Part shown: in pieces, positions 16,055 through 22,496 of the stretch
Layout of the letters: every line of letters begins with the position of its first letter
Position numbering within the stretch: the first letter of the stretch is position 1
IMG/VR virus record: IMGVR_UViG_3300021373_001072
Coordinates: 1-28,710 of that record
Direction: 5' to 3' (one strand)
Source of the DNA: a virus
Length of the DNA stretch: 28,710 nt
Program-made: the position numbers and the translations under genes
The notes under the pieces: model-generated
What the model was told of the DNA's origin: nothing
What the model saw: only the letters and a program-made list of their open reading frames with translations
The model's database searches: none

Positions 16055-16318
16055 ATGCATTCAGTATTAAGCGAAGCGGCAGCTTTACAAAAACAAAAAG
16101 CTGAAGATTACAATTCAAATGATTCAGAAGCTAAACAAGAATACTTTCCGTACGGGCATCATTCGTATTTACAAATGATTTCAACAAAAGTTAAACGTTT
16201 AGAATCAATTGCATTTAATGAAAAAAATCCTAACTTTGAATCAGCTTACGATTCAGTATTAGATTTAATTAACTATGCAAGTTTTTATGGAGCTTATTTA
16301 AAAAAACATGGAAAATGA
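16055..16318 (+). CDS. DUF1599-like protein (nucleotide-modification-associated)
   Basis: 87 aa. AAGGAG at 16044-16049, spacing 5. QKAEDYNSND, YFPYGHHSYLQMISTKVKRL and FESAYDSVLDLINYASFYGA match the DUF1599 (Nmad1) layout: a K..DY start, a K..RL helix and ES..D...DLINYA. The family is all-alpha and related to MazG-type enzymes; it is often found near genes for modified nucleotides. It overlaps the ThyA-fold gene by 11 bp. The assignment is by motif memory. Confidence 0.65.
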   Translation: MHSVLSEAAALQKQKAEDYNSNDSEAKQEYFPYGHHSYLQMISTKVKRLESIAFNEKNPNFESAYDSVLDLINYASFYGAYLKKHGK

Positions 16319-17102
16319 AAAACAATACTTTGCATTAGTTAATAAAATATTAACTGAAGGTGTAGCTAGAGATAAAGAACGTACCGGCACTGGTACTAAA
16401 AGTATATTCGGTGCACATTTAGAATTAAATGTAAAAGCTGGCTTTCCATTATTTACACATAGAAAAATATTTTATAAAGGTGTAATTGGCGAGCTAATAT
16501 CATTCTTACGCGGTCATACTAATGTTAATGATTTTAAAACATTAGGTTGTAACTATTGGGACGAATGGGCAGAGCCCGATGGAAATCTAGGGCCGATATA
16601 CGGTTATCAATGGCGTAACTATGCTGGTTTACAAATAGATCAGTTAAAAAATGTAATTGAAGAAGCTAAAGTAAATCCGGAGTCAAGAAGGTTATATGTT
16701 ACAGCCTGGAATCCAATTGATGCTGATAAAATGGCTTTATTACCTTGTTTTCACGGTTTTCAATTATTAATTCATAATAATCATTTGAATTTAGTAGTCA
16801 ATATGCGCTCGTCTGATGTAATGCTTGGATTACCCTCTGATATTTTATTCCATGCATTTTTAATGTTAGTTTTGTCTAATGAATTAGATATAACTCCTCA
16901 TAAACTAATATTTAATTTAGGCGATGCGCATATCTATAACAATCATTTAAGATTTGCTCGTATGGTTCATGAATTACAAATATTTAATCCGCCGCAAGTT
17001 CGATTGCATTATGAAGCAGGCATAAATAATTTATATCCTAACGATTTTATAATTGCAAGTTATAAACACAATGCAGCACAACATTTAAAAATTAATGTCT
17101 AA
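16308..17102 (+). CDS. Thymidylate-synthase-fold enzyme, probable dCMP (hydroxy)methylase
   Basis: 264 aa, same length as E. coli ThyA. Conserved: RTGTGTKSIFG (Arg25), YWDEWAEPDGNLGPIYG, ADKMALLPC with nucleophile Cys147, MRSSDVMLGLPS, GDAHIYNNH (His208, Tyr210) and the C-terminal DFIIASYKHN. The key oddity is Asp178 (codon 16839-16841) in LGLPSD, where ThyA has Asn177 (GLPFN). That Asn selects uracil; Asp at this place is known in T4 dCMP hydroxymethylase and makes Lactobacillus TS accept dCMP. PCFHGFQ also replaces PCHAFFQ, and the folate-side His51 of ThyA is Phe. I infer 5-methyl- or 5-hydroxymethyl-dCMP synthesis using methylene-THF. A plain but divergent ThyA is the alternative. Confidence 0.8.
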   Translation: MENEKQYFALVNKILTEGVARDKERTGTGTKSIFGAHLELNVKAGFPLFTHRKIFYKGVIGELISFLRGHTNVNDFKTLGCNYWDEWAEPDGNLGPIYGYQWRNYAGLQIDQLKNVIEEAKVNPESRRLYVTAWNPIDADKMALLPCFHGFQLLIHNNHLNLVVNMRSSDVMLGLPSDILFHAFLMLVLSNELDITPHKLIFNLGDAHIYNNHLRFARMVHELQIFNPPQVRLHYEAGINNLYPNDFIIASYKHNAAQHLKINV

Positions 17103-18205: not shown

Positions 18206-19717
18206 ATGGCCTGGTATGATCGATTTGTAAATAATAATAAAAAAAATAAAAAAGTTTCTAAAGTAAGAAGATATGCCGGTGCAAATACAGGTAGATTATT
18301 TTCTGATTTTACTGCATCAAGTACATCAGCCGACGCTGAAATTAAAGATCAATTAAGAATATTAAGAGAAAGAAGCCGTGATCTAGCAAGAAATGATTCT
18401 TATGTAACCAGATATTTAAACTTAATGGTTAGTAATATTATTGGCGCTAATGGTATTAGACTAAGCGTTAAAGCGCGTGATTCAAAAGGCGATTTAGATA
18501 TTATCGGCAATCAAACTATTGAGCATGCATTTAAAAATTGGTCAAGAATGGGTAACTGTACATTAAATGGCCGTCAATCATTTTTAGATTGTCAAAAATT
18601 ATTTGTTGAAGCATTAATGAGAGATGGCGAAGTTTTAGTTAGACATGCTACGCCAAGTGATTCAAAATATAAATACAAAATTCAATTTTTAGAAGCAGAT
18701 CATTTAGATGAAACAAAAAATGATTTTAATCCTCAAACTAAAAACAGAATTAAAATGGGCGTTGAAGTTGATAAACATGATAAGCCAGTTGCATATTATT
18801 TATTTAAAAATCATCCATATGATAATACATATCAATCACCTAAAGAGCATATAAGAGTACCGGCTGAAGAAATTATACATGCATATATGCCTACTAGACC
18901 AGAACAAACTAGAGGCGTGCCTATGACTGCATCTGCTATGCCTCAAATAAAAATGTTAAACGGCTATATGGAGGCTGAGATTACAGCGGCTCGTGTATCA
19001 GCTGCAAAAATGGGATTCTTTACTTCGCCAGATGGTGATGGATATGTTGGTGAAGATTTTGAAGATACATATACTCCTATTATGGAAGCACAGGCAGGTT
19101 CATTTGAACAACTTCCTGCTGGAATGGATTTTAAAAGTTTTGATCCAGATCACCCAAGTACAGCATTTGGCCCATTTACAACACAAGTTTTAAGAGGAAT
19201 TGCTTCAGGTTTAAATATTTCATATCATGCTTTAACTAATGATTTAAGTTCTGTTAACTATAGTTCATTAAGAGCTGGGGCATTAGAAGATAGAGAAATG
19301 TATAAGTTATATCAACGTTTTGTTGTTGATCATTTTATGAGGCCGGTATATGAAAAATGGTTAGAAATGTCTATTTCAAGTGGCGCTATAATTATGGACC
19401 CTGATGTTAATATCCCTTTGCCAATGTCTAAATATGAAAAGTTTGCAGCTGATTCAATATTTATTGGCAGATCATTCCAATGGGTAGACCCTCAAAAAGA
19501 AATGAATGCTTCAATTGCTGGTATGCAAGCAGGATTAGTAACATATCAAGATGTTCAATCTAATTATGGAAGAGACGTTGAAGAGTTATATGAACAACAC
19601 GAAAGAGAACAAAAACTAGCTGAACAATATGGCATTAAAACAGCGTTCCAGCCATTTGGTATTAAACTGCCAATAGAGCCTGTAATTAAAGGAGGCAATG
19701 ATGGCGATTCCGAATAA
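18206..19717 (+). CDS. Portal protein, lambda family
   Basis: 503 aa (lambda gpB 533). Starts MAWYDRFVNNNKKNKK; then RSRDLARNDSYVTRYLNLMV and NIIGANGIRLSVKA, the hallmark opening of the lambda-type portal family. IIHAYMPTRPEQTRGVP and DLSSVNYSSLRAGALEDRE are also strongly conserved. It forms the dodecameric ring for DNA entry and exit at one capsid vertex. GTGAGG lies about 10 nt before the ATG. The 3' end overlaps the capsid fusion gene by about 17-20 bp, where the GGAGG for that gene sits. Confidence 0.93.
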   Translation: MAWYDRFVNNNKKNKKVSKVRRYAGANTGRLFSDFTASSTSADAEIKDQLRILRERSRDLARNDSYVTRYLNLMVSNIIGANGIRLSVKARDSKGDLDIIGNQTIEHAFKNWSRMGNCTLNGRQSFLDCQKLFVEALMRDGEVLVRHATPSDSKYKYKIQFLEADHLDETKNDFNPQTKNRIKMGVEVDKHDKPVAYYLFKNHPYDNTYQSPKEHIRVPAEEIIHAYMPTRPEQTRGVPMTASAMPQIKMLNGYMEAEITAARVSAAKMGFFTSPDGDGYVGEDFEDTYTPIMEAQAGSFEQLPAGMDFKSFDPDHPSTAFGPFTTQVLRGIASGLNISYHALTNDLSSVNYSSLRAGALEDREMYKLYQRFVVDHFMRPVYEKWLEMSISSGAIIMDPDVNIPLPMSKYEKFAADSIFIGRSFQWVDPQKEMNASIAGMQAGLVTYQDVQSNYGRDVEELYEQHEREQKLAEQYGIKTAFQPFGIKLPIEPVIKGGNDGDSE

Positions 19718-22496
19718 AGGTATGAAAGCCGAAGCTGAAAAAGGATTAGCTTGGCGTAAAGAATTTGGCAGAGGCGGGACACGTATTGGTGTTACTCGTG
19801 CAAATCAAATTAAAAACGGGGTCGATTTATCGGAGTCAACTATCAAAAGAATGTACAGTTATTTTTCTAGGCATGAGGTTGATAAGCAAGCTAAAGGGTT
19901 TAGACCAGGAGAGGAAGGCTTTCCAAGTAATGGCAGGATTGCGTGGGCATTATGGGGAGGTGATCCAGGTTACACATGGTCAAAAAAAATAGTTGAACAA
20001 ATGAAAAAAGAAGATGAGCGTAAATTAGAAATGCGCCCATATCCTAATGAACATGCTGCTCGTATAGAAGACCCTGAGCAGTTTGATAGTTTTAGAAGAA
20101 AAAATAATGAATTTAAAACTGGTATACATGTAATACATGGTATTAAAGATAATGAAAGATTAGTACAAAGTATAAGATTTGATTCAGATATGTATACTCC
20201 TGAAGAAGCAAAAGCATGGTTAGAAAGAAATGAATTTGAATATATTAAATTTGAAGATGCTATAGAAGAAAGAGCAGTTTCTGAAAAAACTGAAGAAGCA
20301 TTAAAAAATAAATTAACAGAACACCATGAAGAAGTAGGTGATGTTCAAAGTAAAAGAACAACGCTTGCTGTTTTAAAACAAGTTTATGAACGCGGGATTG
20401 GAGCATTTAATACAAATCCAGGCTCTGTTAGACCCCAAGTTAGTAATGCTAATCAATGGGCAATGGCTCGTGTTAATAGTTTCCTGTATGCTTTACGCAA
20501 TGGAAAATATAGAAGTGGGAAGCATGATACTGATTTGCTTCCTAAATCACACCCTTTATCATCGAAAGAGGAAAAAGCTATGAAAGATAAAGAAGATAGA
20601 CATATCCTCAACGTGAATGAAACTGATGATTCTGTAATCATTGAATTTTCAAAGCACCATGAGGATAAAGAAGAGGAAGAAAATGTTGACGCAGTTTCTT
20701 CTTATCATGAAGATGAAGAAGAGGAAAGAAAAGTTGTTGATTTACCATTAAGGTATAGAACAATTGATCTTTCTAAAAATTCATTTATTGATGAAGAAAA
20801 AAGATTAGTTCGTATTGGTGTTTCATCTGAAGAACCAGTTGAACGCTCTTTTGGCATGGAAGTTTTAAGCCATGCAGAAGGTGATGTAGATATGGAATTT
20901 GTATCATCTGGTAGAGCTCCGTTTTTATTAGACCATGACATGTCTAAACAAATTGGAGTGATAGAAGAATTTAAACTTGATGAGGCAGCAAAAAGGACTA
21001 TTGCTGTTGTTAGATTTGGCAGATCAGCACTTGCTCAAGAAGTTTTTCAAGATGTAGTTGACGGAATTCGTATGAATATAAGTGTTGGCTATAAAGTAAA
21101 TAACTTAGAAAGAGTGAAAGATAACGATCAAATGCTTTATAAAGCTCAATGGACTCCGCTTGAAGTATCAAGTGTTTCTGTGCCAGCAGATCAAAGCAGA
21201 TTAGTCGGAGTTGGACGCTCTGCTAAAATTAATAAGGATATTATTATGACTGAAGAAAAAAAAGATATTAATCTTGACGAAGTCAGAACTAAAACTCTTG
21301 AAGATGCTAAAGCTGAATTTAAAAGAAACTCGAAAGAGATTATTGATTTAGCAGTTAAGCATGATAAAAGAGATTTAGCTGATAACGCAATTAAAGAAGG
21401 TCTTTCAGTTGAAGAGTTCAGAGGTGTATTATTAAATGAAATTTGTAATGATAAACCACTTGAAACTGCTGAAATTGGTATGACTCAAAATGAAGTGAGA
21501 GAATTCTCACTAGTTAGAGCAATTAATGCTTTAGCAAATCCAACTGATAGAAAAGCTCAAGAAGCTGCTGCTTTTGAATTTGAATGTTCAAATCAAGCTG
21601 CTAGAGAACAAGGAGCAACAGCTCAAGGAATTATGATTCCAGCTGATGTACTTGGAAACTGGAGCAAAAGAGATATTAATTCATCTGACGACTCAACTTT
21701 AATCCCTCAGGATTATAAAAGTGGGGATTTCATTGATGTCTTACGTAACTCATCTAGTGTTATGCAAGCGGGCGCGACTATGCTAAGAGGACTCTCTGGC
21801 TCGGTCGTAATTCCAAAGAAAACAGCTGCTTCATCAGCTGCTTGGATTGCAACTGAAGGTAATGCTGCTTCTGAAAGTGAATTTACATCAGGTAGTGTAA
21901 CTATGTCTCCTAAAGTAATCGGCGCGTTTACAGATGCTACCAGATTACTTTTACAACAATCTTCATTAGATGTTGAGAACTTAATCAGAGACGACTTAAC
22001 ACAATCTATAGCTACTGCTATTGATTTAGGTGCTTTAGCTGGTTCTGGTTCAAGCGGCCAGCCAACTGGTATTGCTAATACTTCTGGTATTAACACAACT
22101 ACATTTGCTGCTGCTAATCCAACATACGCTGAAATTATTGGTATGGAATCTGCAGTTGCTGCTGATAATGCATTAGTTGGAAACTTAGCTTATATATGTA
22201 AACCAGCTGATTATGGTACATTAAAAACAACTTCAAAAGATAGCGGAAGCGGTCAATTTGTAGTTGAGCCAGATGGAAGAATGAATGGCTATAATGTTAT
22301 CAGATCAAATCAAGTAACTTCAGGTGATTTTTACTTTGGTAATTTCTCTGATTTACTTATTGGTATGTATGGCGGCCTTGATATAACAGTGGACCCATAT
22401 GCGTTAAGCACATCAGGTGGAGTAAGAATTATTGCTTTACAAACTGTTGATGTAGCTGTACGTCATGCGGTATCTTTCTGTAAATCAAGCGACTAA
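19701..22496 (+). CDS. Four-domain fusion: two accessory domains + prohead protease + HK97-fold capsid
   Basis: 931 aa from the ATG at 19701 (GGAGG spacing 5; the ATG at 19698 is too close). Domain 1, about 1-110: EAEKGLAWRKEFGRGGT, FSRHEVDKQAKGFRPGEEGF, IAWALWGGDPG. Domain 2, about 200-290: KQVYERGIGAFNTNPGSVRP, QWAMARVNSFLYALR. Domain 3, about 345-510, S78-type protease: His412 in FLLDHDMSKQIG and Ser461 in NISVGYKV. Domain 4, from about 516, major capsid: delta helix (DEVRTKTLEDAKAEF), GIMIPADVLG, SVVIPKKTAASSAAWIATEG and DDLTQSIATAIDLGALAGSG. A linker rich in Asp/Glu (KHHEDKEEEENVD) lies before the protease. Fused protease-capsids are known; the two extra front domains are common in phage head genes but of unknown function. 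In-frame ATGs with Shine-Dalgarnos at 20580 and 21246 may give separate products. Confidence 0.9.
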   Translation: MAIPNKGMKAEAEKGLAWRKEFGRGGTRIGVTRANQIKNGVDLSESTIKRMYSYFSRHEVDKQAKGFRPGEEGFPSNGRIAWALWGGDPGYTWSKKIVEQMKKEDERKLEMRPYPNEHAARIEDPEQFDSFRRKNNEFKTGIHVIHGIKDNERLVQSIRFDSDMYTPEEAKAWLERNEFEYIKFEDAIEERAVSEKTEEALKNKLTEHHEEVGDVQSKRTTLAVLKQVYERGIGAFNTNPGSVRPQVSNANQWAMARVNSFLYALRNGKYRSGKHDTDLLPKSHPLSSKEEKAMKDKEDRHILNVNETDDSVIIEFSKHHEDKEEEENVDAVSSYHEDEEEERKVVDLPLRYRTIDLSKNSFIDEEKRLVRIGVSSEEPVERSFGMEVLSHAEGDVDMEFVSSGRAPFLLDHDMSKQIGVIEEFKLDEAAKRTIAVVRFGRSALAQEVFQDVVDGIRMNISVGYKVNNLERVKDNDQMLYKAQWTPLEVSSVSVPADQSRLVGVGRSAKINKDIIMTEEKKDINLDEVRTKTLEDAKAEFKRNSKEIIDLAVKHDKRDLADNAIKEGLSVEEFRGVLLNEICNDKPLETAEIGMTQNEVREFSLVRAINALANPTDRKAQEAAAFEFECSNQAAREQGATAQGIMIPADVLGNWSKRDINSSDDSTLIPQDYKSGDFIDVLRNSSSVMQAGATMLRGLSGSVVIPKKTAASSAAWIATEGNAASESEFTSGSVTMSPKVIGAFTDATRLLLQQSSLDVENLIRDDLTQSIATAIDLGALAGSGSSGQPTGIANTSGINTTTFAAANPTYAEIIGMESAVAADNALVGNLAYICKPADYGTLKTTSKDSGSGQFVVEPDGRMNGYNVIRSNQVTSGDFYFGNFSDLLIGMYGGLDITVDPYALSTSGGVRIIALQTVDVAVRHAVSFCKSSD
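20568..20582 (+). promoter_or_regulatory. Internal ribosome binding site before the protease domain
   Basis: GAGG at 20568-20571 (within AAAGAGGA) is 8 nt before the in-frame ATG at 20580. It would start MKDKEDRHILNVNETDD and give a 638-aa protease-capsid product. It falls exactly between accessory domain 2 and the acidic linker. Confidence 0.45.
21234..21248 (+). promoter_or_regulatory. Internal ribosome binding site before the capsid domain
   Basis: AAGGA at 21234-21238 is 7 nt before the in-frame ATG at 21246. The product MTEEKKDINLDEVRTKTLED would be 416 aa, the usual length and start of a free HK97-type capsid protein with its delta domain. Confidence 0.55.

Follow-up and report, generated by a model that had tools for sequence, protein, structure and literature searches.

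One capsid fusion gene in the window studied here, a marine phage record analysed over its whole length of 28.7 kb, is annotated as one protein of 931 residues but very probably makes three nested products. Judging from start signals in the DNA and their retention in relatives, we propose with considerable confidence that it works as a nested in-frame cistron with starts at 19701, 20580 and 21246, through which a dose of protease would be built into the procapsid.

Layout of the fusion gene

The gene order of the record is terminase large subunit, thymidylate synthase, head-tail joining protein, portal, fusion gene and tail genes, including that for the tape measure. The thymidylate synthase gene (16308–17102) lies between the terminase and portal genes, within the head module. 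The full-length fusion ORF (19701–22496, 931 aa; the gene, its start signals and its domains are all on the + strand) is an open frame with Pfam and PHROG matches. It is preceded by the Shine–Dalgarno (SD) sequence AGGAGG at 19690–19695, an alternative ATG at 19698 is also possible, and the portal gene, which ends at 19717, overlaps its start. Two more SD elements occur inside the frame: GAGG at 20568–20571, within AAAGAGGAAA and 8 nt before an ATG at 20580–20582 (Met294), and AAGGA at 21234–21238, 7 nt before an ATG at 21246–21248 (Met516). A preliminary description of this DNA had read the gene as such a single frame, with products of 931, 638 and 416 aa; the frame and both in-frame SD–ATG pairs are confirmed on the sequence, and the sizes are correct as predictions. 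It had also described a four-part fusion, of which the protease and major capsid parts stand, while its 'two accessory head domains' are unsupported, the N-terminal 293 residues being modular and carrying no evidence of a head role.

The U35 (HK97-type) prohead protease domain occupies residues 361–505 (20781–21215) by alignment and model. TIGR01543 matches it weakly, alignment identifies it clearly, and the catalytic residues His412, Ser461 and Glu488 do not vary across 15 diverse fusions. PHROG 617 covers residues 351–929 (477 bits) and Phage_capsid (PF05065) residues 667–928. As a single ORF encodes both a protease with a His-Ser-Glu triad and a capsid of HK97 fold, the gene is a U35 protease–HK97 capsid fusion. 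Against NCBIfam NF045541 the protein scores 130.8 bits where the cut-off is 525, being homologous and outside that narrow model, and NF045540 (ClpP-like protease/MCP fusion) has no match in the window, where the protease is U35.

An AlphaFold model of residues 294–931, from an alignment of 51 rows, contains three confident domains: the protease (361–505), a helical scaffold from residue 525 and the HK97 capsid (677–931). The stretches 294–359 and 510–524 are low-confidence linkers (pLDDT<50), each opened by one of the internal starts, so that the placing of the SD–ATG pairs at two domain borders, as in the preliminary description, is borne out by their position in disordered linkers. In a Foldseek search with the model the R4C capsid ranks first, followed by further HK97-fold shells. 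The R4C shell is T=7 with 415 copies, the product of fused gene 006 (PMC10276861), and its deposited capsid chain (PDB 8gta) has only 268 aa, starting at the equivalent of residue 664. By homology to this chain, the mature capsid of the window phage probably begins near residue 664, so that the mature major capsid protein, of HK97 fold, would span about residues 664–931 (21690–22493; PF05065, 8gta_A, Foldseek). The delta-like, helical scaffold domain before it (residues 516 to about 663, 21246–21689) is expected to be cleaved off, given its helices in the model and the start of the mature R4C chain. Because that chain starts at the residue-664 equivalent, a 416-aa product, with its scaffold of ~148 aa, would match an ordinary capsid precursor in size. 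Virion N-termini were rejected as a test of the 516 start: by the R4C homology the scaffold region (516–663) would be removed with either start, and the N-termini are therefore uninformative on this point.

The N-terminal region (19701–20579) is a mosaic of swappable modules, with phrog_2859-like, PYPNEHAAR, DUF5824 and Hva1_TUDOR-like types found among the window, L082, L060, L087 and L084. In the window, module A is phrog_2859-like (residues 4–106, 19710–20018, PHROG match), followed by an optional module B of RPYPNEHAAR type (about residues 105–191, 20013–20273), present or absent and reordered among relatives, and an optional DUF5824-like module C (residues 209–276, 20325–20528, Pfam PF19141). 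Module order varies among relatives, DUF5824 standing before PYPNEHAAR in CRP-821. These modules gave no fold match in the PDB, and their AlphaFold model is poor (pLDDT 69). Compared with CRP-821 (L087), the isolated roseophage CRP-823 (L083, about 4700) has one inserted T within a T run of an accessory module, and its capsid gene thus consists of two overlapping frames, each deposited as 'major capsid protein'. The first start is thereby cut off from the reading frame of protease and capsid, while both internal starts are left intact; the insertion could be a sequencing error, and we give it little weight. In L048 (about 1344) an in-frame TAA stands 12 codons past the equivalent of site 294 in an otherwise intact fusion gene; a 638-aa product is therefore impossible for some sequenced copies, although this is possibly an assembly error and likewise carries little weight.

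Conservation of the internal start signals

We measured SD strength as anti-SD pairing energy, strong in close relatives meaning −5 kcal/mol or better; these relatives comprised 80 viral contigs plus named roseophages and cyanophages. Residues 294 and 516 score best of all in-frame ATG, GTG and TTG codons in the ORF (both −6.0 kcal/mol), but an accidental ATG comes next at −5.9. As this is within 0.1 kcal/mol, a single sequence is weak evidence and relatives are needed. A strong SD is present at site 294 in 46 of 46 non-redundant relatives, the Met itself being kept in all 45 that could be aligned from the close clade, and at site 516 in 71% of 51; in the same comparison other in-frame ATGs have one in 6% of cases. 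When synonymous codons are resampled with the peptide unchanged, mean SD energy weakens from −8.5 to −3.2 at site 294 and from −6.2 to −1.9 at site 516. SD-to-ATG spacing is 6–8 nt at both sites, and local RNA structure is lower than elsewhere. Around site 516 the peptide varies (KDII, EVKL, KVKI, QVRN, RSDP) and indels occur, with SD and ATG retained. Both sites thus pair an internal SD with an in-frame start codon under selection, a feature of the nested in-frame start class (lambda C/Nu3, Mu I/Z type).

Two other origins were tried and rejected. Chance is excluded by several comparisons, namely those with the remaining ATGs, with control windows, with resampled synonymous codons, with shuffled codons and with a permuted anti-SD; pure peptide conservation fails for 516, where the peptide varies, and largely for 294, where there is a GAG bias.

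A narrower reading, in which only the protease/capsid start (516) functions and the Met294 signal is a coincidence of the linker peptide, seems to us unlikely. It draws on the far wider occurrence of the second border and on the peptide KEEK at 294, which is itself conserved and favours GAGGAG. Codon choice speaks against it: over the 7 codons just upstream of site 294, Glu is encoded by GAG 72 times and GAA 10 times as opposed to 690 and 2937 elsewhere (88% versus 19% GAG), as does the much weaker SD on synonymous resampling. So does the recurrence of SD–ATG before the protease, with different peptides, after modules have been swapped, reordered or lost among relatives. Site 1 is retained where the accessory modules are absent (L070, L071, L077), and a strong SD–ATG precedes the protease in 76% of 59 fusions with N-terminal extensions, versus 19% of control windows.

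At the second border, between protease and scaffold–capsid, sequence comparison indicates that the arrangement is common to protease–capsid fusion genes generally and not peculiar to the window phage. Three sets of protease–capsid fusions, about 180 different phage genes in all, were compared with equal-length control windows and codon shuffles. A strong SD was found in 68% of 72 non-redundant U35 fusions from viral contigs and named phages (9% of control windows, 17% of shuffles), with an ATG present in all 72 of their protease–capsid linkers. The figure was 81% (controls 11%, shuffles 20%) in an independent 47 U35 fusions found on contigs of bacterial genomes, many phyla being represented, and 93% (18% and 19%) in 60 non-redundant Gifsy-2-type fusions, which carry an unrelated, ClpP-like protease. 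This last set (L334–L420) includes coliphage mEp213 and Pseudomonas phage F10, where the gene goes under the name head maturation protease or Clp protease. In both families the anti-SD energy at the first linker ATG, unselected for SD, peaks sharply at −4 to −8 nt and is near-flat on either side. The ClpP set shows this less strongly (47% strong), since the ATG that bears the SD is often not the first one in those linkers. On the U35 tree the SD-less linkers cluster, the main exception being a clade with cyanophages S-CBS3 and S-LBS1; in this cyanophage-like clade (L084, L085, L174, L178, L195, L256) the linker ATG is kept and the SD lost. Xanthomonas FoX3 has a weak linker SD signal. The preliminary description had named relatives without the pairs as evidence that would count against it; instead, the close clade keeps them under nucleotide-level selection, and at the protease/capsid border they are kept across hundreds of divergent loci.

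Predicted products and procapsid assembly

Could the internal signals be fossils of once-separate genes, with only the full-length fusion made and protease cleavage freeing capsid and protease 1:1? Capsid N-termini are cleaved by HK97-type proteases, about 360 N-terminal residues of the R4C ORF are missing from its mature capsid, and protease and capsid are encoded by split genes in phi39:1, the sole case found; its host presumably makes little use of SD, and phi39:1 is therefore uninformative about SD. Fossils would be expected to decay, yet the signals persist between proteins that are 23–45% identical and carry indels, they show a synonymous bias and peak sharply in position, and they are also found in the unrelated ClpP-type fusions. 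Packing weighs against this explanation as well. If the inner radius is HK97-like and the interior 41,600 nm3, as we assume, the non-shell protein of 415 copies of the 931-aa form would come to about 36,600 nm3; this is nearly 90% of that space and would overfill an HK97-sized procapsid. At the same copy number and radius, the 638-aa form would fill half and the 416-aa form a fifth. We therefore hold it improbable that the signals are fossils. It is more improbable still that the SD-like elements slow the elongating ribosome and aid co-translational folding with no initiation: their position, exactly at the domain borders and within disordered linkers, would fit, but pausing needs no ATG, and yet an ATG is kept at 6–8 nt spacing, occurs in 72 of 72 linkers and is conserved even without an SD.

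If the gene is a nested cistron, ribosomes starting at 19701 would make the 931-aa protein, those starting at 20580 a 638-aa protease–scaffold–capsid and those starting at 21246 a 416-aa scaffold–capsid, the counterpart of the free-standing HK97 capsid precursor. Most of the roughly 415 subunits in the shell would come from the 416-aa form. The longer forms would be fewer and would co-assemble through the shared capsid domain, carrying the protease inside the procapsid in a limited, built-in dose, with the 19701 product bringing the accessory modules too. The protease could next cut the scaffold domain near residue 664 and free itself. We infer this use of the internal starts, the ratio of many capsids to few proteases and the self-delivery of the protease from the signals and domains described above.

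It also seems likely that U35 and ClpP-like fusions have each, independently, retained a ribosome start inside the gene at the protease border, so that a single gene gives capsid precursor in bulk along with a minor form bearing the protease. Tailed-phage fusion genes in general would then not be single cistrons, and capsid maturation would follow a rule of translational stoichiometry. A 600–950-aa product named 'major capsid protein' or 'Clp protease' is annotated in many phage genomes. Should the internal start be real, then in these phages the annotated start of the main virion protein is wrong, leaky in-frame starts explain how a 1:1 fusion yields few proteases and hundreds of capsids, and unrelated protease families have converged on one solution.

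Comparison with known systems

Internal starts in protease genes are already known, as are protease–scaffold–capsid fusions (Gifsy-2; NF045540, NF045541). What appears to be new is the combination, in which the internal start would give the capsid precursor itself and is conserved by two fusion classes that are unrelated; we found no prior report of it in the open-access literature searched. In lambda, the protease and scaffold genes C and Nu3 are nested in frame, and Mu and Mu-like phages have an in-frame internal start within the protease gene (I/Z; PMC4378225). As in these systems, an in-frame internal SD and start in the protease gene is predicted here to give a shorter assembly protein. 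Their internal product, however, is the scaffold only and their capsid gene is separate, whereas the internal frame of the window gene runs through the capsid to 22496, and a second nested start stands before the protease. HK97 shares with the window the protease family, a scaffold (delta) domain in the capsid precursor and the capsid fold, but its protease (gp4) and capsid (gp5) are separate genes where those of the window are fused.

The 'tripartite capsid gene' of Gifsy-2, as later papers cite it (Effantin et al., 2010, in PMC8814770 and PMC3121763), likewise combines protease, scaffold and capsid in one gene. So described, Gifsy-2 and the NF045540 fusions resemble the window gene, with an internal SD–ATG at the protease/scaffold border in relatives, and differ from it in their ClpP-like protease, which belongs to a fold family unrelated to U35. 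In the U35 fusions (NF045541, PHROG 617; ep3, VP882, R4C, RcCronus, CRP-8xx), protease and capsid are homologous to those of the window, and gene order and linker signal are alike; most of these lack accessory N-terminal modules and hence the first border, whereas the window gene has both.
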